64,000 bases of DNA, taken from the NCBI RefSeq assembly GCF_964355755.1, contig NC_092670.1, positions 20,211,201 to 20,275,200 of the forward strand, written 5' to 3'. Source of the stretch: Antedon mediterranea. Lineage: Eukaryota > Echinodermata > Crinoidea > Comatulida > Antedonidae. Below are positions 76-47,700 of the stretch, piece by piece (within the stretch, counting starts at the first letter, position 1; each line of letters starts with the position of its first letter). Both the position numbers and the translations under genes were made by a program. Under the pieces are notes generated by a model. The model made no database searches, was not told the DNA's origin, and saw nothing but the letters and a program-made list of their open reading frames with translations.

Positions 76-1150
76 CGTATTGTCCAAGTGCTTATGAACA
101 ATTTAAAGGAAGTTGTTACCACTTTAAACTGGACGTGGGTTTATCATTCACCGACGCGCAGGATTACTGCAGTGGTAAGGGTGGCTATTTGGTGGTCATT
201 GATTCTGAAGATGAAAATGTATATATTACACAATCTATGGTGGATCTTACTGATAAGGTAATTTTAACGCTCAGTAATACTAACGTACGTATGTTGACGT
301 CACAGGCCCGTTCAAACGTTTTTTTTATTAACCCTGGTATGTTGATTCTTACCCATCAAAGCTAGCGATAACTGCGTTCATGAAACCAACTTGCCCGGGT
401 AAATAACTAAACATGAACAGGCCCTACAAAAGTTATGTGAAAATAAGCCTAAAGATAAATGTATAAACTTCCTGTATATAAACAGGGAGATCTCCCTGAT
501 ATAAAGGGCTTTGAAATAAAATAATAAATTCAAAGTTAACTATGTTCTTTGAATTTAAATTACAGACATATGTTTGGATTGGAATTAATGATATAGAAGA
601 GGAAGGTATTTGGGTACCTGAAGCTCCCATGTTTACATCGTACACAAGTAAGTTACTATACTACTTATACTTACTTATAAATAAACTTATATACAAAAAC
701 ACGTGTGCAAGAGATCGTTTAAATTTGGCGGAAACCCGTTAGATGAATAGGATGAATCCATTAGGATAGAGGGGTGCTAAGTTTAGCACTGTGGAGTTTT
801 TTTTCTGTCTGGACTATTTCAGTTGAAGGATCTTATCATTCTAGCCCCTATGTTTAAAAAAACAGATCCCAGCCTTATTGGTCTTGGTATTGGTAATCCA
901 TCCTAGTATCCATTTATTATGTCAATATATAACTAATCAACATGAATGAATACATGAATATTACCTACCGTACTTACTTACACTAGAATTACTGAGTTTG
1001 TTTTACATTTAGATTGGAATCCAGGACAACCAGACAATTATGTAAATTACGATGGAGAACACTGTGCCCACCTTCAAGTTCAGAATGGTAGAGGTGGATG
1101 GAACGACATACCGTGTTCATTCAACTACATGGGAACCGTTTGCGAGTTTC
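76..1150 (+). CDS. First C-type lectin domain of the chimeric receptor (3 exons)
   Basis: Exons 76-257, 566-647 and 1013-1150 join in frame into a complete C-type lectin fold. It opens with [15 protein letters not shown] and continues with the WIGIND core and WNPGQPDN. It ends with [22 protein letters not shown]. The QPD triplet is the signature normally linked to galactose-type calcium-dependent binding, and the WND triplet supplies the other calcium ligands, so this domain looks sugar-binding competent. The domain closes in phase 1. The exon that would hold its upstream linker or signal peptide is not in the window. Confidence 0.88.
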
Positions 1151-4100
1151 GTAAGTAAAAAAAAAATCAATAATAATTATATTTATATTCTTTATTTTTT
1201 TAACAGTGAATCATCGCCACTAACAGGTTGTTCAAAATCTTCATAAAACTACTATAGATAAAAAATTTAATTCATTAAAACAATTACTGCAGTATTTTAA
1301 TGTTGACTTGTATTCAATAATCAATTCATTCATTTAAATCTATTTAGCTATCATCCTGCATGTTACAATGTCAAAGTGCATTTGTACATCTAAAGCTCTG
1401 CCTACACTATCAAACTAGTTTCACAAAAAGTGTGATGTACCCAAATATGGTAGTGAAATGCGCGCCCAAATATGGTAGTGACATAACGCCATCGTGTCCA
1501 AAATCACACAAATTTCATAGTGTAGACAGAGCTTAACAATATTTTCTAATTGTTAATAGAACCTGTTAGGTTAGTTGGAGGGGACTCATTGATTGATGGT
1601 TTTGTTGAAATATACAATGATGGAAGCTGGGGGACAATCTGCAGTAAGGATTGGGGCACTGTCGAAGCAGATGTTGTCTGCAATCAGCTGAATTTGCCGT
1701 ATAGTGATCCTCTAAAATGCTGTGATGCCAAAGTTCAACATAACACAGGAAGGCACTACGACCAAGTGTCTTGCACTGGAGAGGAGTCTTCTCTGAGTTA
1801 CTGCAGTTCAAAAGTTGAGAAAGGAAATTGTCCAAATGATCTGGACGTCTGGGTTAAATGTTCAAACGGTATGTCTGGAAACATTTTCCATGTATAATGT
1901 TGTTTAACACCCAAACCTATATAGTTTACTATACCCCTATAACCCCTATTAAGGGGACACCTTCAGGACCTAAATAATTTCCCTCAGAATAAAGTTCCGC
2001 AGTATCACGTCACCTCATTATTTTAAAGGGAACGTGTTTCCTTAATCAAGAATGTCCCTGTGCAATAAAGGGCGGTGTCCCTGTATAAGTCGCTATAAGT
2101 TCGCGAATGAGTTTTACTTTTAATTACGTGTCATTTCACCAGATGGAGTTCGTTTAGTTGGCGGTTCGACAGTAACTGAAGGATTTGTGGAAGTATTCAA
2201 ATACGGTGAATGGGGCTCAATATGTGATGCCTACCCTACAAAGTTGGAAGCCACTGTGATCTGCAAGGGCCTAGGCTATAGCGATGCTTCGAACTATACA
2301 AACACAGCTTCTGCGAGTTCTGCTGGCACTGGGAAACCTATTAATATTGCTAATCCAGATTGTGTCGGTACCGAAGCGTCTATATTTGACTGCAATCATT
2401 CGAATAATGACGATGTGTCGTGTCTTCATGATCAAGACATTTTTGTATTTTGTAGTACAGGTAAGTACTGTAGTATTAAACTTGGTTCCCACTAGACACA
2501 ACTTAAGCGAGTTGACCAATGACAGGCGACAGTTCTAATATTCAATCGCTTGTGATTGGTCAAATCTCTTACCTTCCTTACGTTGCGCTACGTCGTTGTG
2601 TTGCGTCTCTAGTGGGAACCACGCATTAGATATACATAGTAACATTCGGGAGTGTTTAAAAAAGGGCTTACTTAAGTTTTATGAAGTAGTAAAGCTTTGT
2701 TCCTACTAGACGAAACGCAAGGACGTAGACACAACGCAAGCGAGTTGACCAATGACAGTTATCAATAAGCGAATAATCAATCGCCTGTGATTGGTCAAAC
2801 CGCTTGTGATTGCTAACTGTCTATAACTTCGCTTGTCATTGGTTAAAACGCTTGCGTTGCGTTTACGTCCTTGCGTCACGTTCTAGTGGGAACCAAGCTT
2901 TACTTTGCGTTACGTCGTTGTGTTGTGCCTACCGCACATAGATACATACGTTTTCATTGTGAACTTCTGGAGTGTTTCACATAGACTTAAGTTTCATACT
3001 AATATAAACTGCCAATCATAGTGATTCTGGTCTAACATCATAATAAGGTACTTAAGTATAACTACTTTAAATAATTGGGCAACATGTATGAATAGAATCA
3101 ATTACTTATTGAAGTGAAATAGAATTGAGGATTACATGGGAAATTAACTGTTATAGTAGATTGTGTATTATTATTGTAGAACGGTAATTTAATGTTGAAT
3201 TGACCTTGTTTTTCTACGTGTATAATGTTTCCCTATCATCTACCTTATGAATATTGCTTTTATTAATTTGGATAAAACTATCACTGTAAGAGTAGAGAAC
3301 CTTGACTATATTGTATGTTTACTCCTTTAAGAGCAAAAAAAGATAATTTAATAAGGAATGAAAGTTTCCAATTCGAACAATAAAATAGTGTATTTCATTC
3401 TTCAAAGATGTATTGTCCCACAAAAACATGAAAAATTAAGATTAATAAAATCAGACTTTGATTATGCCATATTGTAGTTAAGTTAGGCCTAATCACTTGC
3501 ATAGAAAAAAAACTTCGATAAAATAATGCTTTAAATTGGACTATTTTGTTTTTTCGTGTAAATATTTTTTTTTTCGATCCAATTTTTTATCAAAGTGAAT
3601 AACTATTATGTGGAAATGGCAAATTTTAGAGAGACAATATATATTTAAAATGTAGATATAGTCGTGAAGTATTTTCCAATTTTTTTTAACATTATTATAG
3701 AATGTACTGAAGAAATAGTTGTGGAGACTAAAAATCTGTCCTTTTCTGATCAAGTAATTTATGCTGACGTCATAATGGAGCCTTGCACTAAACTTGAATG
3801 GAACATACAGGGAGAAGATAACTATGTTGATTTGAAAATCACTGAAATGAATACGGAAGGAGGTGATGAACAACAATGCACCAGCTATCTTCTTATCAAA
3901 GAAAATAACTCTGAGATCGGACCAGTTTGCAATGACGTCATCCCATTTGTGAGATCCGTATCCAATAACGTTTCGATAACTTTAAGCGCGGGATACAAAC
4001 GACAGTATCTTCACTTGTTAGTTACCTATATGCCAAATGGTAAGTAGGCCTATAGTTTGTCTGTGCTTCAGTGTCATGTCCCAAAGGGTATACTTAGCCT

Positions 4101-7100
4101 AAGGTCTATGTTTAGTCACACCGAGTCTCTATCCTCGTCAGAGGCTAGCATGATATTACTCTTCCATCTATAAGTTATTTAGTAATGATTAAAGAGTAAA
4201 TATTCTGCTTTTGAGAAACAATTCGTTGTCTTTTTACTGTTTATAATTTTAAAGCAATAAAAAATCTTCAATATTTAAATCCCTATGTTATGAAAGAATT
4301 AAATTCATTTTCGCAGAATTACCTGGCTGCTACGCAACGACATATGGATCTCGGTTCGATTGTTTGCACCCGTCCGCCATCTTAGCGACATCTAATTACC
4401 CCGGAGACTATTCACCCGGCAGCCGTTACACTTGGTACATTAAAATTCCATCAACGTCGAACTTTATTCAGCTTACCTTTATAGATTTCGATATACCAAG
4501 TGACGAGTTATGTCAGTCCGATAACCTCATTATATACAATGGTGATATCACTGATGAAGACAAAATTGGAAAGTTTTGTAACTATGAACGGCCGCCGAAC
4601 GATGTTTTAAGTAGTCGCAACATAATAACGTTGGTGTTTTCCTCGGACGGCTCTGGAAGTGGTCGTGGATTCCAGGCGAAATACACTTCAGAATCCGTTA
4701 CGACCATTGGCGCCAATTTTAACTCCAGTAAGTAACATACTGTTTGAAACTAATCGGCCAACCAAATTGAGGTAGGCCTATTTGGATAGACTGTACTATA
4801 AGTTCAAATGTTCTGTTTGAGATTGTTACGTTTTATATTACTAGCAAAGATGCCGACCCCAGGGTGGTTTTCAAGACAATTTCAATCATTGGTACATTAT
4901 ATTCTATGGATCCGTGCAATGGTATAAATATGTATAACGATCAAACACACAAACACTCTCTATATGCCAAATATATATATAACTTTGAACAAATTATAAC
5001 TGTGGTCACATTTTTAAACTCATAATTAATCGTATTTCATACAACAATGAAATTTGAGCCGCCTTTTTTATGAACTACAGATACTTGATACGATATGAAT
5101 ATTGTGTTGGTTCCATGTGTATTTATTATACCTACCAGTAATTCTCTAAACTCACGTTCCACAGGTACATGTCGGCCAGAATGGGTACTGTATGACTACG
5201 CATGCTATCAACGTTTTTTAAATCCAATAGTATTAACATGGACTGAAGCTATAACAGAATGCGAGCAAATTGGTTCCTATCTTGTGTTCGTTAACAACAA
5301 GAAAGAAATGGAGTTTATTCATTATATGCTGATAAACTATTGGCTTTCGGAAGAAAGCGAAACATATATAGGTTCGTTTTGTAAGGGATTTTTTATTGAC
5401 CTTTGTGAATCCAATGTGCTCGGTTTTTTGCTTATTGATATGTTTACTTCAATTCTTTCTTTCCTAGGAGCATTGCCTAGGCCATTTATTATACGTAGTC
5501 CATTGGCCCGAATACATCAATATAAATATTAACAATAAAATAAATTATGTGTGCGCTAAATAATTCTTCCTCTTTTTATAAGCAAAGTAAATGAACTTCG
5601 CAAGGTTAAAATATAATATATTTTCTTTTACGTAATAAAGTTAAAGAAAGCTTGTTACTTAAAGCTTGGTTCCCACTAGAACGTAACGCAAGGACGTAAA
5701 CGCAACGCAGGCGTTTTAACCAATGACAAGCGAAGTTATAGACAGTTAAGCGTGGTTCCCACTAGCGACGCAACACAAGGACGTAACGCAACGCAAGTGA
5801 ATTGACCAATCACAAGCGATGGCTTATTCGCTTGTGATTGCTAACTGTCTATAACTTCGCTTGTCATTGGTTAAAACGCTTGCGTTGCGTTTACGTCCTT
5901 GCGTTACGTTCTAGTGGGAACCAAGCTTTAGCAATCACAAGCGAATAAGCCATCGCTTGTGATTGGTCAATTCACTTGCGTTGCGTTACGTCCTTGCGTT
6001 GCGTCGCTAGTGGGAACTACGCTTTAGTGTGATTACTATAGTAATAATGGTATTATTTGTAGGCTACCGTACTTATTTGTTTTCTCGAATTTGATCAACA
6101 GCAAAACAAATTTGCCTCATGTTTCAATTATTAATTACAGTAACTGTTTTAATTTGTAGGACTGTCGCACCGATTGAGTAATGATGGTGTTTATACTTGG
6201 AGTAACGGAAGCCCTCTAAGCTACTCGGCATGGTACAAGAGCGATGGGTAAAGCCATAACAATATTTAACAATAAACCATTTTGCAATAAATTATAATAA
6301 GATAATACTGTAATTACTGAATTTATTGGCTTTTTAGAAAAGAAAATGTAGTATCAAACGAACCAAAACCAGGAAACTTGGAACAGTGTACATTAATTAA
6401 ATTGGAAACATTCCATTCTCTTCAACAATGGAAAGAGGTGGCTTGCGAGTTCCCCACGACATCACAATACATCTGCAAGTATCAACTCGGTAAAGTAACA
6501 AGGCCATATTCATGACTGCAGTCGCGTGTTCAAATTTGAGTTAGTTTTTACCGACCAACCGACCGTTTGCACGCGACTAAAAATCGTACATCCCTGCCAA
6601 ACATGGCTGACTCGTCTTGACTTGTTGCATGCGTAGTATAGTAGTACAGTAGTAGTAAAACTTTTGATATAATTTTATACCGTTTAATTCTCTGTCTGCA
6701 ATATCAAACTTTGTGACAAAATTGTGATGTGCCCATATATGGACATGATGATGTCATACAGTTTAATGCTCTGTCTACAATATCAATTGTTTTGTGACAA
6801 AAATACGTGATGATGTTATACGGTACCACTACCATTATTTGGGTATATTACTACCATATTTGGGCTCATCACACTGTTTTGTCAAACTAGTTTGATAGTG
6901 TAGACAGAGCTTAACATCTTATAAAGTACCACCTCACATAATACAAATCAATTTAATTGTCTCAATACTTTTTTACTGTAATATGGTGATTATTTCAAGC
7001 AATGTTATTTTCACAGAGAACGCTATGTGGAGTAACTCAACAGTAGGTATGCATGAGAATTCATTTCAAGGTGATTATGTAATTTTATATTTTATAAACA

Positions 7101-10100
7101 GATTGTAATTACCAACGGGATTGAAACTTAATCTATCAATGAATAATTAATAAACGTGGTTATTTAAAGATTTATGTTGTTATGTTATTTAACATGAAAA
7201 TGAAGATTAATAAAAAATGACTTTCAATAGGCCATTTCGCAGTTTTAATCAAGTTAATCTCTTCTGTAGAAAAAAAAATGCTTTTACTTACTTACTTAAA
7301 ACAAAATAAACGGTTAAATGCAACAAAAAACCATTGATTTCCAGTCTATTTTACCATTTTTTTGGCTCTAAATTACAGTTTTTTCTGGTAAATAATTGTT
7401 GGTCAAAGTGTATAAATACTATGTGACATTAAAATAGCATTTATTTAACAAAAACAGTTTAAAACGTTTTTTTTCAAGGAGACAATATATCGATAATATA
7501 GATCAGATAAGGGAACTTTATATCTTTAAATATTATTATTAAACGGGTTATGATTAAATACACCTGTCTTTAAATGTATTACAGCACATACAGTAACACA
7601 TATCCATACGGATGTTGTTCATAGGCCTGCAGCAAAATTCGTTTTGTTAATTAGATATTTCTTAATTTGAATACATTTATCTCTGATTTTGGCATTTTTA
7701 TGTTTTCCCTTATGTAAATTGAAACTCAATTCAGCGTTTTGTTGCTGCTTTATTTTAATATTGTTGGAACTTGAAAAAATACCAGTACAAAACGACGAAA
7801 TACATCACATGATATATCACATGTTATGATGCATAAAAAGATCAAATGGTACATCACAGGATACATCACATGTTATGATAAATGACGGACAGTTTTTTTC
7901 CAGAGAGATGTTATTTTATTTTATTTATTTTTATTTTCAATATTTTGACATTCAGAAACAAAAAAGTTGAACAGGGATGTCGAGGTAAAGCAAAAGTTTT
8001 AAAAATAGCATGAAATGAAAGATGTGCTTAACCAAACCCACGTCAACAATACATAAACAAACAAAATTCAATACATAACAAAACATAAAACAAATAAAAT
8101 ATTGTGCAAAAATTACATTAGAGATAGATTATAAAAATAGATGTTATAAGCCTTCGGCTATAAAATCTTTGGTTTTTTCTCAAAGCCTTCTGCAAAATTA
8201 AACCTTTTTCAATACGAGTTTTGCCTGTCAATTTGATTATGTACACAACTAGGCCTATATTCATATTAAACAAAAGCAGCACATTATTAATAATGATTTA
8301 TTAAACATTTTTTTAAAGAATGCCATAGCAACGACTTTCAGTGTGATAACGAAGAATGTATACATGAAATATTTGTTTGCGATGGAACAGAAGATTGTAA
8401 AGATGGAAGTGACGAGATGAATTGCAAAGGTAAAGTAGCAATTATAATTAACAGCTTTCAGCAGTGACATCATCCTTGTATAATTACATTAAATAAGCTG
8501 TTTTTAATTTAGTAAATGTACTATTGATCAGTAGTTATGTAACTATAGAATTTTAATCATAACACCATGGTGAAGGAATACCAATATGTAGGATTACCAT
8601 TTCATTGGAAATGTGATTGTTGTTGTTCGTTGTTCGACACTGTGTAATCATATTAAACGCACTTTTGAGAGACACGATGTATTTTAATTAAACTTTGCCA
8701 ATGTAAACCCACATTTATTCACCTTTTCCATTACTTTCATTATATTATTGTACTTACATACAACAGTATACAATAGTATTATACATTCAAACGCATTATT
8801 TGGCTCTCCACACCTTTAAAAACTACGCAATGTCTACTGCGAGTATTACTTATTGATTGTTATATCAGAACAATAAATTATCTACAATATTAGTACATTC
8901 TCTTAGATGTTATTTCCTGTATAACTGATAACATTAACAGATAACATTTATTTAGATAATAATGAATGAAAATATACAAATAGATAAAAGATATTAAAGT
9001 GAACATAGATAAAGTAGTAATTGGTAGTCATTATTTTCATGGATTCCTTCTAGAAGTTAAAAACTTGTCTCGCAGGGACCCACAACAAAACACATTACTA
9101 AAAAATTAAAAATAAACCTAGAGTATATAATTATATAATTAAGGATAAAAATTACAGTATAATAACCTTAATAACACCTGTACAGGTTTATCATTGATTG
9201 TCTACCGAAATATGTCAGTAATTGTAAAATACTTTTTCAGCTACAAATTAAATAATTGTCATAGGTTAGCCGTTTTTCTTTTTTTTTTCTATCTTTTGTG
9301 GTTCACCACCACCTTTATTTATTCAATGTTTCATTACATAATTTATAAACATTTTCTACCTTTTTTCATTATTTTCTGTTTTTTTTAGTATCGTACCATT
9401 ATACAAAGTATTTACTTCTTAACATTCTTTTTTCTGTTAAATCCTCTACTGTATTTACAATAACCAATTGTATATTAATTAAAATACTTAACTACATACA
9501 TCAAATGCATTGTTTGGTGTACTACTAACCTGTACACCCACATAGTGTACACACATGTAAATACACACATTCATTTATCTATATAATTTTCACAAATTAA
9601 ACATTAATACAATTAATACAAATGTTTTATAGATTCATGTGAGCAAGGTGGCTTCTTATGTAAAGATGGCCGATGCATATCTGTATCATTTGTTTGTGAT
9701 TTCATTTCACACTGTAGAGATCTGTCAGATGAAATTGATTGCTGTAAGTTTAAATATGTACACATTGTAGAATTAGAAAGGAGTACGGGGCGCCATTTAC
9801 ACATATTTAAAGTATGTTGTAAAAAGTCATTGAACGCTTCTGTCATTTTGTTGATACATGGACGATTTTCAGCAAGTCTTGTTTATGATTGGGTCCCCCA
9901 CTAGAACGCAACGCAAGTAACTTGACCAATCACAAGTGATAGATTATTCGAACTGTCGCTTATCATTCGTCAACTCACCTGCATTGCGCTTACGTCATTT
10001 TTTGAACCAAGCATTAGCGTCAACAAGTTACACGTCACCCGCGTATGGTGTATCGTGATGTTACATTGGCTCCCCATAGATGTATCGGTGTCCTAATGTT

Positions 10101-13100
10101 AAAGTTTAGCAAATATAACTTGAATATTATTTAAATTGTGTTTTCTCTAAAGATCATCCTAACTGCTCAGTGGGCCAGTATACATGCGACAATGGTCAGT
10201 GCATAGATATGTACATGCGCTGTGATCTACTTATACAATGTGAAGATTCGTCAGATGAAATGGAATGTGGTGCGTTTCTATCAAAACTTTATTTTTAAAA
10301 CTTAATTTAATTTTTATTAATCCCGACTCTTTGTCCGAACATGTTTGAAATATACCAATGTTTATAAACATCATTACTACTGTATGAATAGGTCTATTCA
10401 CTTGTATGCAACATTTGCACAAATTATGTAAATATATTAGATTATTCACTTTGTTAGATGTATGTTCATCCGGGTTCCAGTGCTATGATGGCTCCTGTTT
10501 ACCATCGCGAGCCGTTTGTGACGCCACCAACGACTGTCCTGGTGGGATAGTGGAGGACGAGATAAATTGTGGTAATTATACCAAATACAAAAACATATTG
10601 TGAATTTAATTTCATATAATCATACATAACTTTATTTAATAATACAAATTATAAGATAATATTACTCTGAAAGATGTATTAAATTATATTTAAAGATTAT
10701 TGGGGAAACAACACATGTTCAAAGAATGAGATGACGTGTAAAAATAATGAATGTTCACCAAAACGCTACAGATGTATCTTTGACCCTGATGAATATCACA
10801 TACAAAAAGGATGTAGAGATGTATCACATCTCGAAGACTGTGGTAAGTTAATATTTGTAAAGCTCTGTCTACACTATCAAACTGTATGTGACTAAAATAA
10901 TATGTTGTTTCCCTATATGGACACGAAGACGTCATACCACTAGTTAGACATCATCACACTTTTTTTGGTCAAATTAGTTTGTTAGTCGTATGTGTAGACA
11001 GAGCTTAAGAATCCACACCAGATCATTCATCAGCAATGTTCATTTATTAATAAAACTATTAGCATTATAAAAGTAATTAATGTTTTTAGGATTGGTAAAA
11101 AAAAAGGTACTGAACTTTATTTATGTTTTAACCATCGATAGAACACTTTGAATGTCCAAAGAACACGGTCAAATGTCCGGCAAGTTACTGCATAGCGGAA
11201 AGATTACGTTGCAACAGTGTATGGGAGTGTCCGAATGGCGAGGACGAACAGGACTGTGGTAATGATAACGGTTTTAAAATTGATTGTTCCATCTTGTCTT
11301 AGTGTCGCAGGTTGTTAATAAAGTATTCCTTTATTATTTCCTTTATAGATATGAAACGCCATGTGCGCATAAGTACATAGAGATTCATTCCCATTCATTT
11401 TCACATATATGTGAAATTGGTTTAGATAACTGTGTATGCTTTAGACACCTTTCTATTGTTTCTCAAAAGTTAAATATTACTTGTACAAATTGTTTAAAAT
11501 TGTATTTATTTATATCTTTAGTTTCATATACCTGTCCTGGTTCATATAAGTGTAGTCATTCAGAAATATGTGTACCACGTGACGATAGATGTAATGGCGT
11601 CAAAGACTGTCCTGAAGGCGATGACGAATTTTTCTGTGGTAAATATAGTTCAGTTAAACTTGAAAAATGTTTTTCTTTACTCAAACCAATCTCATGTTTG
11701 TGTTGTCTCTTCCATTTGTCTTAACTAATATCCTAGCCAGACATTAGTTAATTTAAGTAGGCCTACCATACATTTTTTCAACGTCTGCGGTTTTCCTTCA
11801 GGAAATGAATGTCCAAATGGCTGTTCTTGTAGAGGGTTGGAGATGGAATGCAACGGTATTGCCTGGAACCAGACGATGGCATCAAGTATATCAACTTCAA
11901 CACGATATTTGTAAGTATGTTTCACCAAATAAAATTGATAGGGTCTACTAAAATCAGATTACTGATGTAAACTATAAGCTGAGAGACTGGTTGGTTAGAA
12001 GTTTCAGTGCGTATTCAAAAATTGCCTTCTACCATTTTCAAGCTTAGCACTGATATAATGGCCAGTTAAAAGTGCCTACAACATACCAGGACTATACTAA
12101 AAATACGAATATGCCTGCATGTCTTGTCGATCAATTCATTCATTCATGTATTATTCATTGCAGAAATCTGACAGGTCTCAGAACAGTTACACCAGTGACC
12201 CGGAGGTCAAATAGAAAAGTGACGCTAAAAGAGGCTGTACTTATCGATATTGAACTATTCGCACTACTTGTAACGGCGTAAGTTCTTCAGAAAAGAAGAT
12301 CGGCCTATAGCCACTACCGTTTTATACGTTTCTATAGATCAAACTCTCTTGGTGTTTTGATTAAGGTACTCTGATATACAAATCTATTATATGCACTCCT
12401 CATAATTGTTTTTTTAATTTAGGGACTTTTCAAATGATGGTATCGAAGAATTGTTACCTTATACATTTGGGTATCAAGCAAACATGAGAAGCCTGTAAGT
12501 AGTTTATTAAATCTTAGATTTTTTACTATTTAGTTTATGACATAACCAATGCTTTTTTCCATTTATCTTTTACTTTTCTTGAATTCAAAGGATATTGACG
12601 AACAACGATATAACACATCTACCATATGGTGCATTTTATGGATTAAATAGTCTTGAAATCTTGTAAGTATCAATCGGTCAAAACTTGCAATCTTATTCTC
12701 TTTACTTGCATTTTCCTTCTCTCACTTCCAAACATATAAGTCTGGAAATTACGTATGGCTATGTAACAAATCAGTGGTTTATATTTTTCAGATACATCAA
12801 TGGCAATGGTTTAATATCCATAGATTCTGGTGTATTTCTTGTTATTTCGGAACTACAGTATTTGTAAGTTAAACATACGGGGCGCCGTTCACGGCATTGT
12901 AAATTATGTTGATAGACCAGTAGTATTGTTTCAGTTTTTTCAAATGACTTAATATTTCTTTACTTTAGATATATACAAAAGAATGAATTAGAAACGTATG
13001 AAGAAGACGTATTTGACGGTTTGGACAAATTAAAATCTTTGTAAGTGTTGAAACTATATTGTATATTGCTCTATGCCTAGAATATGTTGTTCCCTTCAGA

Positions 13101-15500
13101 AACAACTTGTAGGATCTGCACTGATCTAGTTAAAGATAGGTAATGTGTTGCTAAAAGTAAAATTAAATTGTTGATATACAAACTAGTTTGACAAAAAAAT
13201 GTGATGTGCCCAAATATAGTAGTGATATGTCATCATGTCTATATATGGTCGCATCACTTTTTTTTTACATAAAGTTTGATAGTGTATACATAATTTTATA
13301 CTGTATCACATATTGATTTCGCCTTGCAAATCTTCAAACAATTTAAAATAAAATTCTCATTCTTTTTTGTTTTCTTCCATAGCACATCGGACGATTTTCT
13401 TTTCTGTTGCTTTGTGGGTGATATCGAACACTGTGATCCTGCGGCTGATCAATTCTCCTCTTGTGAAGATCTCATGAAAAACGAAGTTTTACGAGTTCTT
13501 ATGTGGATACTAGGAATAAGCGCCCTCCTAGGAAACACCATTGTCATCATTTGGCGCTTGTATTCCAAAGACTACCGCAATGTTCAGTCCATCCTTATCA
13601 CAAATCTGGCCGCTTCTGATTTTTTAATGGGTCTTTACATGATAATAATCGCGGGAGCTGATTTATATTATAGAGGTCGTTACGCGCGGTTTGCAGACGA
13701 TTGGAAAACAAGTTTTCTTTGTAGTTTCGCCGGTTCATTATCAACATTATCTAGTGAATTCTCCGTTTTTATTTTAGTTGTTATGAGTATTGATCGTGCC
13801 ATTTCTGTTGCATTTCCTTTTAGTACATACCGGTTAAATCGTAAGAGGTGTATGAATTTACTTGTAGTTTCTTGGCTTATAGCAATCATCATCAGTTTCT
13901 TGCCGATGTTTAACATACCGTATTTTGGTGATAATTACTATGGAAGGCCCAGTGTTTGTCTGGCACTGCCGCTAACCGGAGACAGACTGCCAGGATGGGA
14001 GTACGCCATAGCCGTATTCCTAGCATTCAACCTGTTTGGATTTTTCATCATTGCAATAAGTTATATTTACATTTATATCTGTGTAAAACGAGCAGCAGCA
14101 TCGGTGAATAAAAGACAGGCCAGTTCTAACGAGTTGAAGATGGCAACAAAAATGGCAGTGATTGTCTTCACGGACTTCTGCTGCTGGTTCCCAATCATCC
14201 TGATGGGTATTGTGGCGCAGACTGGAGCGTGGCAGATCCCTGTGGATATCTACGTCTGGTCGGCAACATTGATTATGCCCATAAACTCCTCCATTAATCC
14301 GTATCTGTATACTATTCCATACATTGGTGAGGCAAGGAGGAGGCGACGCATGAAAAGGCATGGTAAATCTATACATATGAACACTGAATCTAGAAGTAAG
14401 TACCTTGATTTTCTTTCGGGTTTTCGATGAAAAGACGCCCTTTCTCGTCACATGGAGATGATACACCGGGTTTGCCATCACTAGAGTCAGGAGTATAAAC
14501 AAACGAGGATGATTAATCGGTAGACCACCTCACCTTAAGGCCAACTCCTTACGACAGCATCGTACGATGAGGCCCGGCGAAACGTCTTGACTCGTCGGTG
14601 TCTGAGTTGAATCCCAACGAGACGATTCGTCTTGAGATAGCGTCGGACGTAGTTTTTAGGTCGCCGGGAGAACTTTAAACATGTTTAACTTTCTCCCGTC
14701 GAGACGACTCGTCGGGCCTCGTCGCACGACACTGTCTGAGTTGGCCTTGCAAAGCAACACCCAGATGATACGTGACAAACTTTTCCAACATCATGTCTGA
14801 CGTCAGCCGATATTTGTCACAAGATCAAAAATTTTATTTACATTATTGTAAAAACCCACCTTTACCAAACAAAACAATATCCTGGAATAATTCAGCACTT
14901 CTCAAAAATGCTTAAAACAGATGATAATTAATGATGACGCCATTTTGTTTACAATTACAGGTTTAGATTTAACACCATTGGAGAAGATTAGACTGGATGT
15001 TGAAAGGAACCGGATTCTTCCGATGCTAAGCGTTGGAACGTCTCGTCCTTATCAGTTGTCAGCAATTCTTGATAACCACGCCAAGAAAGTAGCGGCAAAC
15101 GCGACAAAGCATCATGTATTCACGGAAAGAGAAGTTAATCAGATAGAAAACGATTTAACAAAAGCTTTGCTGTTTCTACATCGAAATAAAATGTTGCATG
15201 GTGATGTTTCCGAAGATTATATCATCGTATATTCAGAGTCGGTAAGTCGGTCAGCTCTGTGTTACGCCATTGTGTTGTATTTAAGATTATAAACTGCCCA
15301 ACCAAAATAGTTTAATAAGTCATTATTTATATTTTGTTTTCATCTACTAGGACGGCAAACGAGCTTTTCTAATCGACACCCCAACACTCTCGATTGATTC
15401 TACTGAAGAAGATACGCTACGTTGTCAGCAAGAATTAGACCAACTCAAGAATGTTATGAACTCTTTACGAGTGTCGAAAAAACATCAAAATGGTTTATAA
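76..15500 (+). CDS. Chimeric CTLD-SRCR-CUB-LDLa-LRR 7TM receptor with pseudokinase-like tail (5' end missing)
   Basis: Partial gene of 27 inferred exons: 76-257, 566-647, 1013-1150, 1560-1868, 2143-2460, 3701-4039, 4317-4727, 5165-5371, 6160-6247, 6338-6489, 7017-7046, 8319-8429, 9633-9743, 10153-10269, 10458-10571, 10696-10842, 11142-11258, 11522-11638, 11802-11910, 12164-12277, 12423-12494, 12591-12662, 12792-12863, 12969-13040, 13383-14395, 14961-15241, 15351-15500. Every junction is GT-AG and the phases agree, giving 5,045 nt (1,681 codons including stop). No signal peptide or start is visible, so the 5' end lies left of the window. The LDLa-LRR-7TM core is that of relaxin-receptor/GRL101-type LGRs. 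The extra lectin, scavenger and CUB modules suggest recognition of glycans or proteins at the cell surface; the ligand is unknown. Stop is TAA at 15498, with an AATAAA signal at 15575. Whether all exons form one transcript needs RNA evidence. Confidence 0.8.
1394..1533. repeat. MITE family A, copy 1 (140 bp, TAA target duplication)
   Basis: Terminal inverted repeats AGCTCTG(T/C)CTACACTATC ... GATAGTGTAGACAGAGCT flanked by TAA on both sides (1391-1393, 1534-1536). Internal sequence carries near-palindromic CCCAAATATGG blocks. It lies 26 bp upstream of the first SRCR exon, so it occupies the acceptor-proximal intron. The 3-bp TAA duplication fits the PIF/Harbinger superfamily; no transposase is encoded. 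Confidence 0.88.
1560..2460 (+). CDS. Two SRCR (scavenger receptor cysteine-rich) domains of the chimeric receptor
   Basis: Exons 1560-1868 and 2143-2460 each encode one whole SRCR domain flanked by phase-1 introns. Domain 1 has [21 protein letters not shown], the VCNQLN segment, and late cysteines in [11 protein letters not shown]. Domain 2 has [30 protein letters not shown] and [12 protein letters not shown]. These are the standard opening and closing motifs of the family, which binds proteins or polyanionic ligands extracellularly. Single-exon phase 1-1 domains are the classic shuffled module. Confidence 0.9.
2479..2930. repeat. MITE family B, two copies and a fragment in tandem
   Basis: Copy one 2479-2625 has ends ACTTGGTTCCCACTAGAC / CTAGTGGGAACCACGC and TTA on both flanks. 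Copy two 2693-2899 has AGCTTTGTTCCTACTAGAC / CTAGTGGGAACCAAGCT. A 3'-end fragment (TTTGCGTTACGTCGTTGTG) follows at about 2903-2930. Internal sequence alternates CGCAACGCAAGGACG with CCAATCACAAGCG and their complements, so the whole element can fold into a hairpin. The flanks around 2635-2690 and 2945-3000 also look duplicated. It lies in the intron after the second SRCR exon. Confidence 0.83.
3490..3655. repeat. Dispersed unclassified repeat E (also at 7230-7500 and 58480-58720)
   Basis: All three copies share a TTTGGCTCTAAATTACAG/TTTTCAGGTAAATAATT-like stretch followed by a TCCAATTTTTTATCAAAGTG-like stretch, GAATAACTA(T/C)TA and a short purine-rich tail. Copies are 150-270 bp and diverged, with no clear terminal repeats. 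They lie in receptor introns and INTS1 intron 26. Confidence 0.5.
3701..4727 (+). CDS. Two CUB domains of the chimeric receptor
   Basis: Exons 3701-4039 and 4317-4727, both phase 1-1. The second is a clear CUB domain: [19 protein letters not shown] is the usual SPNYP..Y.....C.W motif, followed by [11 protein letters not shown], a [11 protein letters not shown] segment and a late RGFQAKY strand. The first is divergent. It keeps the beta-sandwich pattern and a cysteine pair (around CTKLEW and [10 protein letters not shown]) but lacks the NYP motif, so I call it CUB-like with less certainty. Confidence 0.75.
5165..6489 (+). CDS. Second C-type lectin domain of the chimeric receptor
   Basis: Exons 5165-5371, 6160-6247 and 6338-6489 form a second C-type lectin domain. 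It starts [16 protein letters not shown] and carries [17 protein letters not shown], then [21 protein letters not shown], and a final VACEF...YICKY. The first donor must be at 5371/5372; the stronger-looking GTAAGG at 5381 would produce a stop at the junction. WND is replaced by WKE and no intact EPN or QPD is present, so calcium-dependent sugar binding is doubtful. A 30-nt micro-exon (7017-7046) follows and encodes a short Asn/Ser-rich linker with an NST glycosylation sequon. Confidence 0.82.
5663..6023. repeat. MITE family B copy interrupted by a second family B copy (nested)
   Basis: The outer element begins AGCTTGGTTCCCACTAG and ends CTAGTGGGAACTACGCT. It is split at ...TATAGACAG-TTA by an inner full copy at 5749-5937 (AGCGTGGTTCCCACTAG to CTAGTGGGAACCAAGCT). 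TTA is present on both sides of the inner copy (5746-5748 and 5938-5940). Removing the inner copy and one TTA rejoins TATAGACAGTTAGCAATCAC, which matches the complement of the inner copy. It is in the intron inside the second lectin domain. Confidence 0.9.
6685..6911. repeat. MITE family A, copy 2 preceded by a partial copy
   Basis: A left-half fragment (about 6685-6760) stands immediately before a full-length copy (6767-6911) ending GATAGTGTAGACAGAGCT then TAA. It lies in the intron between the second lectin domain and the micro-exon. Confidence 0.8.
7017..7046 (+). CDS. 30-nt micro-exon linking the second lectin domain to the LDLa array
   Basis: TTTTCACAG precedes it and GTATGC follows. 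The phase (1 in, 1 out) fits both neighbours. It encodes about ten residues including NAMWSNSTV. It could be skipped without changing the reading frame, so it may be alternatively spliced. Its reality rests on splice signals and phase only. Confidence 0.5.
   Translation, partial: RTLCGVTQQ
7230..7500. repeat. Dispersed unclassified repeat E, copy 2
   Basis: Contains GGCTCTAAATTACAGTTTTT, CTGGTAAATAATTGTTGGTC and GTCAAAGTGTATAAATACTA, matching the copies at 3490 and 58480. The rest of the long intron 7047-8318 shows AT-rich sequence and short ACATCACA repeats (7800-7880) but no exon I can support. Confidence 0.5.
8319..11638 (+). CDS. Seven LDL-receptor class A modules of the chimeric receptor
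   Basis: Seven exons, each one module and each phase 1-1: 8319-8429, 9633-9743, 10153-10269, 10458-10571, 10696-10842, 11142-11258, 11522-11638. Most carry six cysteines and the C-terminal acidic calcium cage: [51 protein letters not shown]. The fifth is atypical, longer (147 nt) and lacking the SDE box, so its calcium site is probably lost. In relaxin receptors a single LDLa drives signalling; a seven-module string resembles the GRL101-like receptors of invertebrates. Confidence 0.9.
9889..10013. repeat. MITE family B, diverged copy
   Basis: GGGTCCCCCACTAGAACGCA at the left, TTTTGAACCAAGCA at the right, followed by TTA. The internal CCAATCACAAGTGATAGATT motif is shared with the other copies. 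It is in the LDLa intron between exons at 9633 and 10153. Confidence 0.72.
10861..11005. repeat. MITE family A, copy 3 (145 bp)
   Basis: Both inverted ends intact with TAA on both flanks (10858-10860 and 11006-11008). It lies in the intron between the fifth and sixth LDLa exons, starting 19 bp after the splice donor. Confidence 0.88.
11802..13040 (+). CDS. Leucine-rich repeat block of the chimeric receptor (LRRNT plus about five repeats)
   Basis: Exon 11802-11910 encodes a cysteine cap ([14 protein letters not shown]) typical of LRRNT. Exon 12164-12277 is a divergent repeat. Exons 12423-12494, 12591-12662, 12792-12863 and 12969-13040 are each exactly 72 nt (24 residues) and phase 2, encoding typical repeats such as [20 protein letters not shown]. 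One-repeat-per-exon with 72-nt phase-2 exons is the arrangement known for LGR/relaxin-type receptors. The block runs straight into the hinge of the 7TM exon. Confidence 0.88.
13171..13292. repeat. MITE family A, diverged copy 4
   Basis: Shares AACTAGTTTGACAAAAAAAT, GTGATGTGCCCAAATAT and a degraded right end (AAAGTTTGATAGTGTATACA). The terminal bases are eroded. It is in the intron before the 7TM exon. Confidence 0.6.
13383..14395 (+). CDS. Seven-transmembrane domain of the receptor (relaxin receptor/GRL101-like, class A GPCR)
   Basis: One 1,013-nt exon. A hinge with [17 protein letters not shown] leads into TM1 (GNTIVIIW), TM2 ([13 protein letters not shown]) and TM3 ending [17 protein letters not shown]6 starts in [13 protein letters not shown] and TM7 ends [10 protein letters not shown]. 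The DRY motif is DRA, and the NPxxY equivalent is NPYLY, as in the LGR family. Arg-rich residues follow TM7 ([13 protein letters not shown]). Expected role: plasma-membrane G-protein coupling. The exon ends in phase 1 and is spliced on to the tail exons at 14961 and 15351. Read through, it would stop at about 14430, giving a possible alternative short form. Confidence 0.92.
14961..15500 (+). CDS. Cytoplasmic tail resembling a truncated pseudokinase
   Basis: Exons 14961-15241 and 15351-15500 add about 143 residues after the 7TM domain. The segment [20 protein letters not shown] aligns by eye with the alpha-E/catalytic-loop region of protein kinases (ALxYLHxxxxxHRDlkpxNI). The HRD arginine is Gly and the loop Lys/Asn positions are not conserved. 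A DGK..FLIDTP stretch sits where beta-7/beta-8 and DFG would be, with no DFG. No glycine loop or VAIK lysine lies upstream, so the N-lobe is missing. Catalysis is therefore unlikely; a docking or allosteric role is only inferred. The kinase assignment rests on short motif similarity and needs a profile or structure search. Confidence 0.6.
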
Positions 15501-18717: not shown

Positions 18718-20285
18718 TTCAATTCAATTCAATTCAATTCACATTTATTTACTCATCGTTTATAAATACAGCTTCATAGCATAAATGATGGCAAGGATCC
18801 TGCATAGAGAAGTTTACACTTCTGTTTTCGCAGGACCCTTTTACATAAAAGACATAAAACAATAAACACAACATAATAGATACAAAATAAAAAAAAAACA
18901 TTCCTATATACATTTTAGAGTTGTTCATCATCAAAAAGCGATACTGTTTTTTTAACATGATTATTTGTACTATGTGTGTATACTCGCACACACCAACACA
19001 AATGCATAATATATGCATCTATATTTTATGAGTAAAGCATTTTAAGTTCTGTAATTCGATAAAATGTCTCTTTTTACATATTTTTTTAGTATTTTATAAT
19101 TTTTGTTAACAATATCTAAGTGATTTCTACAGAGCTCGTTCCATAGTTTCGGTCCGTGAATACTGATCAAATGTTGACCAGACGTTAACCTAGAGTATGG
19201 TTGTTTTACGCTACAAATATTTCGAAGATTATGGGTAGTATTTTCGTTTCTTTTGAATATCATTTGGATTCGTCTGGGTAAAACATTGCTTTTAATCTGG
19301 GCCATGAAACCTAGGACGGTAACTCTGTTGATATCTTGTATGTTAAGAATATTTAATTGCTTAAACAGTGGCTCAGAATGTTGCCATGGCTTTTTAAATA
19401 AAATTATTCTAGCAGCCTTTTTCTGGAGTTTAAGAAGGGATTCTAGTGTACTATCATATGTACTGCCCCAAATAATGTTTCCATACTGAAGGTGCGGTAG
19501 AATTAATGTATTATACAAATTTGTTAAAATATAATTAGGAAAAAAATGTCTAGTTTTTATCAATATTCCAATAGACCTAGCGGTTTTTTTGCTAATAAGC
19601 CTTATATGATTTTTCCAGCAAAGGTTCTCATTTATTACAACCCCAAGAAATGTTACATTTTTTTGTTGTTCTAAAGTAATGTTATTCATTTTCAATTCAA
19701 TGTTGGTTGTAATAATACGCCTTTGGGCAGTTTTAAAGATTACGTAATTTGTTTTGCTGGTGTTTAATAAAAGTTTATTAGCTTTGAACCACATATTAAT
19801 TCTATCTAGTTCCACATTCATAGTGTTTGCCAATGCGTTCAGGTTATTTCCACACTTGAATCCTGTTGTATCATCGGCAAAGCTAATTAATTCAATTTGT
19901 GTACTTGAGTTACATATATCGTTTACATATACAAGAAACAACAAAGGTCCCAAAACGGACCCTTGTGGAACACCAATACTAGTCTCCTTAATATTAGACG
20001 AAGTACCATTTATAAAAACATATTGCTTTCGTGATTTTAAGTAGTTACTGAACCATTTTAGTGTAACACCTCTTATACCATAGTGGAATAGCTTGTTCAG
20101 TAAGATACTGTGGTCAATAATATCAAATGCCTTTGACAAATCCATAAATGTGGCAATTACGAACTCTTTGTTTTTATCTTGTGAATGTATTTTTATAAAT
20201 ATTGAAAAATAAAGTATTAAAATCCAAATCATTATTACAACAACAGGGGGTATAATAACAATAATTAGATTTTATACCTCCCTGA
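18718..20285 (-). mobile_element. 5'-truncated non-LTR retrotransposon (CR1/L2/jockey-like), RT fragment on - strand
   Basis: The - strand ORF 20232-19042 (396 codons) encodes reverse transcriptase fingers/palm: FMDLSKAFDIIDH, then GVPQGSVLGPLLFLVYVNDI, then SFADDT with the catalytic FADD. A thumb-like region and conserved C-terminal LHxxLxxxxLxxxxxR-type sequence follow. Similarity begins about 25 residues into the ORF, and no endonuclease domain is present, so the copy is 5'-truncated. The 3' end is a short ATTGA-type pentamer tail (18718-18740 on the + strand, AATTC repeats). RT segments lacking an upstream EN/ORF1 are typical dead copies. The RT frame itself has no stop over 1.19 kb, so the insertion is relatively young. 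Confidence 0.85.
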
Positions 20286-41726: not shown

Positions 41727-44700
41727 GTAAGTAATACGATTTTACAAACTCCTTAATTAAAAATTCTGATTACAGATCTTTAATTAAAGTGGAGCCCCTC
41801 AATTTGTACACCCTATTATTAAAGATTGGTTCCCACTACGATACAACGCAAGACGCATTTTGAATTTTAATTTTTAATCACTTGTGATAATCAAATCACT
41901 TTATGTTGTGCTTATGGCCTTGCGCTGGGAACCACGCTTAAGGGAACACTTCCTTGTGAAACAAACAAGGGGAGATACAGGTTTTAATAGCCATCCCTTA
42001 TTAAGTGGACACTCCTATTACGGGGCGAATGAGTGGTTGAGCGGTTAAGATAGTGGGACCGTAAATTACGTATCTATAACATCGGCAATTGTTCAAGGCT
42101 GACTCACTCCATGGTTCTAGTGGTAGAACAAGTCTTAAGGACTATAAACCGTAGATCCAGTGTACATATCTAGCTCATGTGTTTGTTTGTTTGTTTGTTT
42201 TCATTTCTTGCTCATATAAAAATAACAGTTGTACAGAAATATACATCAAAAGTCGCAGACTTAAAAAACAACAAATTCAAAACAAAGAAAAGAAACAAGC
42301 AAATTCAGTCCAAAGACAATAAAAAAACGAGTAGTGCTTATTAGACAAGTAGTGCTTATTAGACAAGTAGTGCTTATTAGACAAGTAGTGCTTATTAGAC
42401 AAGTAGTGCTTATTAGACAAGTAGTCCTTATTAGACAAGTAGTGCTTATTAGACAAGTAGTCCTTATAGTAGTCCTTATTAGACAAGTAGTGCTTATTAG
42501 ACAAGTAGTCCTTATTAGACAAGTAGTGCTTATTAGACAAGTAGTGCTTATTAGACAAGTAGTGCTTATTAGACAAGTAGTGCTTATTAGACAAGTAGTG
42601 CTTATTAGACAAGTAGTGCTTATTAGACAAGTAGTCCTTATTAGACAAGTAGTCCTTATAGTAGTCCTTATTAGACAAGTAGTGCTTATTAGACAAGTAG
42701 TGCTTATTAGACAAGTAGTGCTTCTTAGACAAGTAGTGCTTATTAGACAAGTAGTCCTTATTAGACAAGTAGTGCTTATTAGACAAGTAGTCCTTATAGT
42801 AGTCCTTATTAGACAAGTAGTGCTTATTAGACAAGTAGTGCTTATTAGACAAGTAGTGCTTATTAGACAAGTAGTGCTTATTAGACAAGTAGTGCTTATT
42901 AGACAAGTAGTGCTTATTAGACCAGTAGTCCTTATTAGACCAGTAGTCCTTATTAGACAAGTAGTGCTTATTAGACAAGTAGTGCTTATTAGACAAGTAG
43001 TGCTTATTAGACAAGTAGTGCTTATTAGACAAGTAGTCCTTATTAGACCAGTAGTCCTTATTAGACAAGTAGTGCTTATTAGACAAGTAGTGCTTATTAG
43101 ACAAGTAGTGCTTATTAGACAAGTAGTGCTTATTAGACAAGTAGTGCTTATTAGACAAGTAGTGCTTATTAGACAAGTAGTCCTTATTAGACAAGTAGTG
43201 CTTATTAGACAAGTAGTGCTTATTAGACAAGTAGTGCTTATTAGACAAGTAGTGCTTATTAGACAAGTAGTGCTTATTAGACAAGTAGTCCTTATTAGAC
43301 AAGTAGTGCTTATTAGACAAGTAGTGCTTATTAGACAAGTAGTGCTTATTAGACAAGTAGTCCTTATTAGACAAGTAGTGCTTATTAGACAAGTAGTCCT
43401 TATTAGACAAGTAGTGCTTATTAGACAAGTAGTGCTTATTAGACAAGTAGTCCTTATTAGACAAGTAGTGCTTATTAGACAAGTAGTGCTTATTAGACAA
43501 GTAGTCCTTATTAGACAAGTAGTGCTTATTAGACAAGTAGTCCTTATTAGACAAGTAGTGCTTATTAGACAAGTAGTGCTTATTAGACAAGTAGTGCTTA
43601 TTAGACAAGTAGTGCTTATTAGACAAGTAGTCCTTATTAGACAAGTAGTGCTTATTAGACAAGTAGTGCTTATTAGACAAGTAGTCCTTATTAGACAAGT
43701 AGTGCTTATTAGACAAGTAGTCCTTATTAGACAAGTAGTGCTTATTAGACAAGTAGTGCTTATTAGACAAGTAGTCCTTATTAGACAAGTAGTGCTTATT
43801 AGACAAGTAGTGCTTATTAGACAAGTAGTCCTTATTAGACAAGTAGTGCTTATTAGACAAGTAGTCCTTATTAGACAAGTAGTGCTTATTAGACAAGTAG
43901 TGCTTATTAGACAAGTAGTGCTTATTAGACAAGTAGTGCTTATTAGACAAGTAGTGCTTATTAGACAAGTAGTCCTTATTAGACAAGTAGTGCTTATTAG
44001 ACAAGTAGTCCTTATTAGACAAGTAGTGCTTATTAGACAAGTAGTGCTTATTAGACAAGTAGTGCCTCTTAGACAAGTAGTGCTTATTAGACAAGTAGTG
44101 CTTATTAGACAAGTAGTGCTTATTAGACAAGTAGTCCTTATTAGACAAGTAGTGCTTATTAGACAAGTAGTGCTTATTAGACAAGTAGTGCTTATTAGAC
44201 AAGTAGTCCTTATTAGACAAGTAGTGCTTATTAGACAAGTAGTCCTTATTAGACAAGTAGTGCTTATTAGACAAGTAGTGCTTATTAGACAAGTAGTGCT
44301 TATTAGACAAGTAGTCCTTATTAGACAAGTAGTGCTTATTAGACAAGTAGTGCTTATTAGACAAGTAGTGCTTATTAGACAAGTAGTCCTTATAGTAGTG
44401 CTTATTAGACAAGTAGTGCTTATTAGACAAGTAGTCCTTATAGTAGTGCTTATTAGACAAGTAGTGCTTATTAGACAAGTAGTCCTTATAGTAGTGCTTA
44501 TTAGACAAGTAGTGCTTATTAGACAAGTAGTCCTTATAGTAGTGCTTATTAGACAAGTAGTGCTTATTAGACAAGTAGTCCTTATTAGACAAGTAGTCCT
44601 TATAGTAGTGCTTATTAGACAAGTAGTGCTTATTAGACAAGTAGTGCTTATTAGACAAGTAGTGCTTATTAGACAAGTAGTGCGTTATCATATAACTGAC

Positions 44701-47700
44701 CCTACCAACGTTATCACTGTCTCTACTGTATATATATTGTATTGTAGGTGCCAGTCCTCTACACGATGAGAGCGATAATGTCACAGATCCAGCTGATGGT
44801 AATTCTGCAGACACCATAGAGAGTCTTTCTTCTGAAGAGTCTGCCAGTGCTACATGCCCAAGGTAAGCAAGACTCCTCTGAAATTGAGAAGTCGAATTAA
44901 ATTTTTAAGTGGGGAGGTGGAGTTACTTGGCCTTTGTTTCTGTATGGAATAAAAGCTTTAGTAATATTATTAATGATTAATGTTTTTTCTGTACAGATAT
45001 AGCTTAATTGCCAGCAACATTGACAAGTTTATTTTGGATTTGGTAAAGGAACAACTTGCACGACGACAGGCGATGGATATTTCACGTAACCTCCTACGCT
45101 TATTAACCGTGACGGCTGGATTGGCAGAGGTACGATTACTGGTGGTTCCGAGACTCGAGATGTGGCTCCAAAATCCTAAGGTGACTGAGGTTTTTTAGTA
45201 CCCAACAGTCCTTTTTTCAACAAACAATTACATAATACCTAACAATAAATATGGTTACAATAGAAGGTGCTCCGCTTGAAGTAAACTTCCATTATTGGGT
45301 CCTACACTAGTTAATAGAATGACCTACATTGAGTTCATTTTGTAGATCACAAGGCAAGCACAAGAGGTTTTGATCTCCATCTGTATGAACTGTAGCTCCA
45401 AGAACCAAACAGACCGTGACCTTATTAGTCACCTGATCAAGATCCGATTGAAGACAAAGCAACTTGTCAACCACTACATGGCTTGTATTAAGTAAGAACC
45501 TGTGGCCATATTCACCATTCACACTTAGGCTAAGTGAAACACTTACCCTTAAAATTAAAAAAATATCCTATCTAAGTGAATACAATTTAAGGAAAATACT
45601 TAAATATTTATTGACTTAAGTGTGATTGGTGAATACAGCCACTGCTGTATAAGCCTCCCTCTAATAAAGACCATTGTTGGGACACCTGGTTTCTCAGTGG
45701 CTGTATTATTTTAAATAAATTGATTGCGTTCTATTTTTCAGGGAACTTGTTAAATTTGATTCCGAGAATCTGAATATTGTTATAAAACATGTAATCTACA
45801 ACGAGCTGTCCAGTGCACGAAATCCAAACAACATGGTGATGTTGGCGACTCTTTTCAACCACTTCCCAGAAGCGAGTGCTAATGTAAGTGCGTTTTGCTG
45901 CAGTTACTGCAGTAATTGTAGATTAAAGATAATTAAAGATGACTAGATGGCACGCTCGCTTCGCTCGCGTACCATCTAGGTCTTGCCCACAGATGGTTCT
46001 CGAATACACAGTATTTCCAGCGAGAAAAAAATGGAGATTTCAAATGTACGTACCGCAGGACTATAATACATTGTCGTTTACAGAAACGAATAAATATACA
46101 CAATGATTTATGTAGTCAACCAAAATTAGCACCCTGGGAATTACTTCCGAGAGAGAAACAAAATGAGTCAAATTTTTTTATTTGGACTCATTTAAACAAA
46201 CCCAATTTGTGTTTTGTATGTAACATTAAGGGTTGAGGGATGGGGGAAGAAGATAGGTACAAAGAGGAAACATTTTAAAATATATTCTTATCCACTCAGT
46301 AACGAAATATTGTTTTTAATGTTTTATAGGCCTATAAATAATATACCACTAAATACAGTAAAACATTTACGATTTAATACGGTACTTTGTTAAAACTCTC
46401 ACTGTCATAGTCGATTGAAATAGTAAAGTACATGTAACGATACACCACTACGACGTTTAAATATTTTTAAATTATTAATTAATACAAACGTTGAGAAGCA
46501 ACTGTCAGTAATAACGTTTATTTATTTGTATATTATATGTTTATAATCTAACAGTAGGGCCTACCCACACTCACAGTAATAAAGTTTATTTGTATATATT
46601 TTTATATTACATCTGACAGTACCAACACTCACAGTAAGAAATTTGCGATTCAAATTGCGATCAAAAGTGGTTAATACCTTAACAGTATTGTACAGCATTG
46701 CAATACTATTTATGTTTATTCTCCAAGGGGGCCCATAAATCTAAATCTATACCTCTATGGTTAAACCCCTGGTTAAACCAAATAATTTGGAATGTTTATT
46801 TGTATATTATATGTTTACAATCTAACAGTAGGGCCTACCCACACTCACAGTAATAAAGTTTATTTGTATATATTTTTATATTACATCTAACAGTACCAAC
46901 ACTCACAGTAAGAAATTTGCGATTCAAATTGCGATCAAAAGGGGTTAATACCTTAACAGTATTGTACAGCATTGCAATACTATTTATGTTTATTCTCCAA
47001 GGGGGCCCATAAATCTAAATCTATACCTGTATGGTTAAACCAAATAATTTGGAATGTTCCATTCATCACAAATCAATACATTTGTAAAAACGTATATTAA
47101 ATGTATCAAAATAGTATTTTTTAAAGAAAATCGGCCTGTCTTCAACATTATGATGCTGTACTCGAACTGTTCAACCGGTTTTCAGCTATTAAAAACAATT
47201 ATCGTAAGAGGAGATAGGAAAATGCGAAGCCTCCTCGCATTTTTGTGGCGGGTATTTTTCAAGATGGACATCCATTAGACAGTGTATACCACGATCGGAA
47301 AACACCCCTATTTGGGGCAAATCGTTGAACCTAAATTCGTTTTAATCGTCAATAACTAATTATCTAACTTAATTTAATTAGTAAACAGGGTTACATCAGG
47401 TGGTTAAAATCAGTACCGAAAGTACGAACCAACTTTATATACCATCGAGTAAAAATTCTAGAAGTAAGGCGCGATTTACCGAATTTTGCCCTTACGTAAA
47501 TTTATATATAGATAAGCAGTTAGTATGCATAACTACACTGGTAGTTAGTTATAGTAGTTGGTTACCATAGTTAGTTAGTTACAATAGTTAGTTATAGTAG
47601 TTAGTTAAAATAGTTAGTTAGTTATAGTAGTTAGTTAAAATAGTTAGTTATAGTAGTTAGTTACAATAGTTAGTTAGTTAGTTATAGTAGTTAGTTAAAA

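Follow-up and report, generated by a model that had tools for sequence, protein, structure and literature searches.

The window, a 64,000-nucleotide stretch of the crinoid Antedon mediterranea genome (NC_092670.1, positions 20,211,201 to 20,275,200), contains on its forward strand the 3' part of a gene predicted to encode a G-protein-coupled receptor (GPCR). From the letters alone, this part had been described as a single receptor gene at 76-15500, with 27 exons of consistent phase and one frame of about 1,680 codons. Exon-by-exon rebuilding from the raw sequence bore out this description: all 27 exons lie at the positions first given (Table 1), acceptors are AG and donors GT, and phases are consistent throughout (mostly 1-1 for the modules and 2-2 for the LRR exons). 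The frame, 1,680 codons including the stop as first modelled, has a single stop at its end. One donor had to be corrected, from 7043 to 7046 in the small exon at 7017 (AACAGTAG, followed by gtatgc), which adds 3 bases and one codon; another in-phase donor lies slightly downstream, leaving the 3' end of this exon uncertain.

The gene does not begin within the window, however. In the assembly sequence 5' of the window, 15 further exons, all in phase, occupy positions -15497 to -84, and the gene starts 15.5 kb before the window with an ATG and a signal-peptide-like segment (MSIFKFSIWIIFTILFQAKAQ). The sequence-only reading is well supported as to one gene and right about the modules it listed, but missed the 5' third (these fifteen exons) and the kinase-like tail. 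The full model has 42 exons with one start and one stop, and predicts a protein of 2,299 aa with the order signal peptide-Kringle-CUB-F-type lectin-LDLa x4-CTLD-SRCR x2-CUB-CUB-CTLD-LDLa x7-LRR-7TM, followed by a ~110-residue tail resembling a kinase C-lobe. The first F-type-lectin exon, which ends at -7307, is followed by a GC-AG intron, and the remaining introns of the model are all GT-AG.

Table 1. Features of the receptor gene within the window (window coordinates)
Feature	Position	Strand	Remarks
CTLD-1, first exon	76..257	+	Pfam; PDB relatives are C-type lectins
CTLD-1, second exon	566..647	+	
CTLD-1, third exon, with GQPDN and WND	1013..1150	+	
SRCR-1	1560..1868	+	Pfam SRCR
SRCR-2	2143..2460	+	Pfam SRCR
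CUB, divergent	3701..4039	+	Recognised by fold, not Pfam; conserved in C5 paralogue
CUB, second of window	4317..4727	+	Pfam CUB
CTLD-2, exons 5165-5371, 6160-6247, 6338-6489	5165..6489	+	Pfam; sugar-site motifs degenerate
Small linker exon, phase 1-1	7017..7046	+	Possibly skipped, or with a later 3' end
Seven LDLa exons: 8319-8429, 9633-9743, 10153-10269, 10458-10571, 10696-10842, 11142-11258, 11522-11638	8319..11638	+	
LRR N-cap and LRR exons: 11802-11910, 12164-12277, 12423-12494, 12591-12662, 12792-12863, 12969-13040	11802..13040	+	Pfam LRR_8
Hinge (SSCEDLM) and complete rhodopsin-family 7TM, one exon	13383..14395	+	
Cytoplasmic tail, exons 14961-15241, 15351-15500, kinase C-lobe-like	14961..15500	+	Stop 15498-15500

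Paralogues and the case for one gene

The paralogue on chromosome C5 (C5:14.47M, 47% identity to the gene over aligned codons) has its modules in the same order: F-type lectin, LDLa x4, CTLD, SRCR x2, CUB, CUB, CTLD, LDLa x7, LRR cap, LRR, 7TM and tail. That at C4:21.38M, with a 7TM 82% identical, contains CUB, F-type lectin, LDLa x4, CUB, CTLD, LDLa x7, LRR, 7TM and tail; it lacks the CTLD-SRCR-SRCR-CUB block, and no Kringle was found there. Partial versions at C7:14.08M and C11:22.08M have a CUB upstream and then LDLa, LRR and 7TM, and the former also has a CTLD and the tail. Because the module order is repeated in C5 and, minus one block, in C4, the locus is best read as a single gene. Exon phases and the order conserved in these two paralogues give good support to the assignment of all modules to one GPCR gene, which would be expressed as one full-length transcript. 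The conserved order also led to rejection of a chance assembly of unrelated exons. A pseudogene was rejected on the open frame and the low dN/dS, which between this gene (C1) and C4 is 0.05-0.16 in estimable modules, rough values because synonymous sites are near saturation; nonsynonymous change is far below synonymous in all modules compared.

The sequence-only reading had named a separate start codon and signal peptide before the LDLa or CTLD-2 exons as a finding that would refute it. A scan for start exons with a hydrophobic leader, using a donor matrix derived from the gene itself, recovered the gene's true start and a single weak candidate, at 5095; three arose by chance on the other strand. 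At 5095-5164 an in-frame ATG and a hydrophobic stretch run continuously into the CTLD-2 exon, possibly as an internal-start isoform or as a pyrimidine-tract artefact.

Receptor class, ectodomain and tail

The closest solved structure to the 7TM is RXFP1 (7tmw, E 1.5e-49), followed by the LH and TSH receptors (LHCGR, TSHR). The hinge SSCEDLM, CCWFP and NPYLY (NPxxY) are intact in the 7TM exon, and the DRY position reads DRA, so that G-protein coupling is not certain. The features of type C LGRs are all present, namely a rhodopsin-type 7TM related to those of hormone receptors, an LRR ectodomain with an N-cap, and N-terminal LDLa. The single LDLa without further modules that marks RXFP (type C1) was not found; the predicted protein has eleven LDLa together with lectin, SRCR, CUB and Kringle modules. 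The tree places RXFP1 in a pair with the C7:24.96M locus of the same genome (97/94) and the gene's own 7TM outside that pair, an exclusion that is moderately firm given that RXFP1 and the C7 locus are both long branches. Judged by its sequence, the receptor is a type-C LGR outside the relaxin-receptor (RXFP, type C1) clade. It is probably GRL101-like (type C2), an assignment based on the number of LDLa and on the exclusion from the RXFP1 clade in a tree without a GRL101 sequence. Membership of the adhesion GPCRs was rejected, as the whole protein has no GAIN/GPS or 7tm_2 Pfam match at E 0.01. Elsewhere in the genome, C10:16091351-16092450 encodes a TSH/LH-receptor-like LGR (PDB TSHR, E 9e-124), which is likely the glycoprotein-hormone receptor of A. 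mediterranea.

The ectodomain comprises one Kringle, three CUBs, one F-type lectin, two CTLDs, two SRCRs and eleven LDLa; the LDLa exons are grouped as four and seven, the seven sitting directly 5' of the LRRs. Upstream of the window, Pfam recognises a Kringle (1.3e-23), a CUB, four LDLa and a galactose-binding/F5-8-type domain; in the window part it recognises Lectin_C twice, SRCR twice, one CUB, Ldl_recept_a, LRR_8 (E 3.4e-16) and 7tm_1 (E 2.4e-30). Exon 3701-4039 has no Pfam match; its AlphaFold model (pLDDT 68) finds its best PDB matches among CUB domains (MASP-2, TSG-6, C1r; best E 1.4e-5). The order CTLD-SRCR-SRCR-CUB-CUB-CTLD-LDLa x7-LRR-7TM, as first read, is therefore upheld by Pfam and, for the first CUB, by the AlphaFold/PDB fold match. 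The LRR exons are 72-bp phase-2 repeats with an N-cap and adjoin the 7TM. By its closest PDB relatives, striped-bass FBP32 (E 3.5e-48) and eel fucolectin (1k12, E 8e-17), the upstream F5/8-type module belongs to the F-type lectins, a relation judged on overall sequence. CTLD-1 retains QPD and WND, which in CTLDs mark galactose-type binding that depends on Ca2+, a canonical Ca2+/galactose-type site. CTLD-2 has EPK and WKE in place of these motifs and is probably incapable of Ca2+-dependent sugar binding of the QPD/WND kind.

The tail, encoded by the last two exons, resembles the alpha-E helix and catalytic loop of kinases. With the single sequence, a PDB search finds the pseudokinase VRK3 (E 6e-4), and Pfam kinase matches fall below the cut-off. 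A profile of four paralogues again has VRK3 as its best match (E 2.7e-5), and all 60 matches listed, of 345 in PDB, are kinases. The relation to a kinase C-lobe is drawn from these sequence profiles; an AlphaFold model of the tail exon with four sequences has a pLDDT of 55, too low for a fold search. At the position of the catalytic HRD, C1 (this gene), C4, C5 and C7 have HGD, HGT, HGH and HGL, respectively; the Mg-binding Asn is mostly replaced, RAFLI stands instead of DFG, and a kinase N-lobe is lacking. An active kinase was rejected because the catalytic residues are absent. For the same reason the tail is taken, on its residues, to be a non-catalytic remnant, yet one kept in four otherwise strongly divergent paralogues.

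The receptor family in the genome

A search of the species' own genome found at least 66 near-full-length related 7TMs at 46% identity or more, mostly clustered on C7, C8, C9, C1, C3 and C10. On C3, seven 7TM loci (one with a broken 7TM) are preceded within a few kb, on the same strand, by SRCR, LDLa and Kringle matches. At C3:6.97-7.17M (+) and C3:3.18-3.19M (-), one or two SRCRs, LDLa, Kringle and LDLa lie 5' of a related 7TM, forming a second module-shuffled LGR group. Genome-wide, 8 of the 76 Kringle matches lie within 30 kb upstream, on the same strand, of one of the 66 7TMs (one of the 8 being counted for a tandem neighbour), against 2 at control positions with a threefold larger total length. 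In the large expansion, six sampled members have LRRs only in the 6.5-14.6 kb upstream of the 7TM, a sample in which just the C8 copy spans all the space to its tandem neighbour. Such LRR-only relatives occur in tandem clusters, for example at C7:3-6M, C8:24.38-24.49M and C9:16.72M. In the tree, the LRR-only members sit next to C1 and C4, nested within C5 and other module-rich loci, and a tree forcing all module-rich members together was rejected (p-AU 0.002). The simplest history would be a module-rich ancestor from which distal modules were lost, after which the 7TM-LRR part was amplified.

Possible function and relation to known receptors

The predicted protein may be a cell-surface recognition receptor, likely for microbial or foreign glycans and particles, with the LDLa-LRR-hinge as a tethered agonist, a G-protein output and a non-catalytic docking tail. 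We put the probability of this reading at slightly above one half, and infer the surface location, ligand class, activation route and role of the tail. Repeated ligands, probably glycans carried by microbes or particles, would be bound multivalently by the distal modules (lectin, SRCR and CUB). Their clustering or pulling would re-orient the proximal LDLa-LRR-hinge unit, which may serve the 7TM as a tethered agonist, the role proposed for this unit, and for LDLa in particular, in relaxin receptors (PMC4561518). Output from the 7TM would pass through G proteins, and the kinase-like tail may serve as a docking or regulatory segment.

The protein could instead be a peptide-hormone receptor, with an insulin/IGF/relaxin-like ligand on the LRRs and LDLa, in which the other modules (lectin, SRCR, CUB and Kringle) serve only for localisation or for binding to matrix or co-receptors. 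The 7TM is indeed nearest RXFP1, the LDLa-LRR-hinge is conserved in the module-rich members, and IGF has been proposed by Veenstra as the GRL101 ligand (PMC8286064). However, the number of near-full-length 7TM copies with differing ectodomains suits recognition diversity better, the gene's 7TM falls outside the RXFP1 clade, and orthologue-like candidates for hormone LGRs lie elsewhere in the genome (TSHR-like at C10:16.09M and relaxin-type at C7:24.96M). A hormonal role therefore appears unlikely.

We hold it equally doubtful that the receptor recognises self or environmental non-pathogen cues, as in chemosensation of food or larvae, or gamete or cell-cell recognition. Fucose- and galactose-type lectin modules are also used in gamete and food recognition, whereas the combination of SRCR, CUB, Kringle and F-type lectin is more characteristic of proteins of the immune system or of coelomocytes. 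The size and clustering of the family are akin to those of chemoreceptor families, and a starfish GRL101-like gene is enriched in sensory tentacles (PMC6267866). Finally, it is improbable that several transcripts divide the locus, the upstream exons giving a lectin protein that is soluble or short, and the rest a CTLD-LDLa-LRR-7TM receptor with its own start ahead of CTLD-2: C5 has in-frame ATGs like that at 5095 and the product from CTLD-2 onward would have the architecture published for snails, but the hydrophobic stretch at 5095 is read from the pyrimidine-rich end of an intron, the equivalent position in C4 carries a stop and lacks an ATG, the three candidates on the other strand are equally good, phases are unbroken, and C4 has lost an internal block while keeping the modules on either side.

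The core idea of the preferred reading, a lectin-bearing LGR in host-pathogen recognition, is already published (PMC12297450). The GRL101-like receptors of Biomphalaria sudanica, whose SudRes2 cluster is associated with schistosome resistance, likewise combine C-type lectin, LDLa, LRR and a rhodopsin-type 7TM, form a paralogous cluster and have been proposed to act in host-pathogen recognition; however, they are from a mollusc, number 12 genes in the cluster and have no Kringle, F-type lectin, SRCR, CUB or kinase-like tail described (PMC12297450). GRL101 of Lymnaea and other type C2 LGRs share many LDLa, LRRs, a short hinge and the 7TM (Tensen 1994; PMC8286064; PMC11863921), but the canonical GRL101 form, compared by description and not by sequence, has LDLa and LRR only. 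One GRL101 orthologue per ambulacrarian species has been reported (PMC8286064), as opposed to the 66 or more related 7TMs here. RXFP1 and RXFP2 (type C1) have the LDLa-LRR-7TM arrangement too, but with one LDLa and about ten LRRs, and without lectin-type modules. Amphioxus adhesion GPCRs bear Kringle, lectin, SRCR, CUB, LDLa or discoidin modules (PMC2246102), a similar toolbox on a different 7TM class (adhesion, as against a rhodopsin-type LGR here). The earlier impression that the exact order was unusual consequently has to be narrowed, as the CTLD-LDLa-LRR-7TM core is known from snails and the modules from these amphioxus receptors. What appears to be new here is the addition of F-type lectin, Kringle, SRCR and CUB modules and of a kinase-like tail to that core; a partial literature search found no description of any of these on an LGR. 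GPCR-kinase fusions have been reported from choanoflagellates, sponges, oomycetes and amoebozoans, and among holozoans from choanoflagellates and sponges only (PMC12716839). They too have a kinase-related segment C-terminal to the 7TM, but theirs are kinase domains, whereas here a C-lobe-like remnant follows an LGR.

More tentatively, the gene may belong to a module-shuffling LGR family in which the GPCR itself is the pattern-recognition receptor, with dozens of paralogues that share one 7TM type and have swapped exons for lectin, SRCR, CUB, Kringle and LDLa modules, some with a conserved pseudokinase-like tail giving a second, G-protein-independent output, in a bilaterian. If so, microbe- or glycan-triggered G-protein signalling would take place inside single receptors, beside Toll-like and scavenger receptors, and, taken with the snail SudRes2 receptors, GRL101-like LGRs would have become recognition receptors in molluscs and in the crinoid lineage. 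The family would represent exon-phase module exchange on a constant 7TM. It would also place in a bilaterian a kinase-related GPCR tail, for which PMC12716839 describes no cases outside choanoflagellates, sponges and eukaryotes further removed.

The remainder of the window contains tandem arrays at 42330-44688, 47541-49083 and 61232-62928, with an 18-bp unit repeated 134 times, 13/26-bp units and a 30-bp unit repeated 57 times, respectively. In the first array both strands are open for more than 800 codons, a repeat artefact and not a gene. A 396-aa reverse-transcriptase-like ORF of a LINE-type element, judged from its translation, lies at 19042-20232 on the reverse strand.
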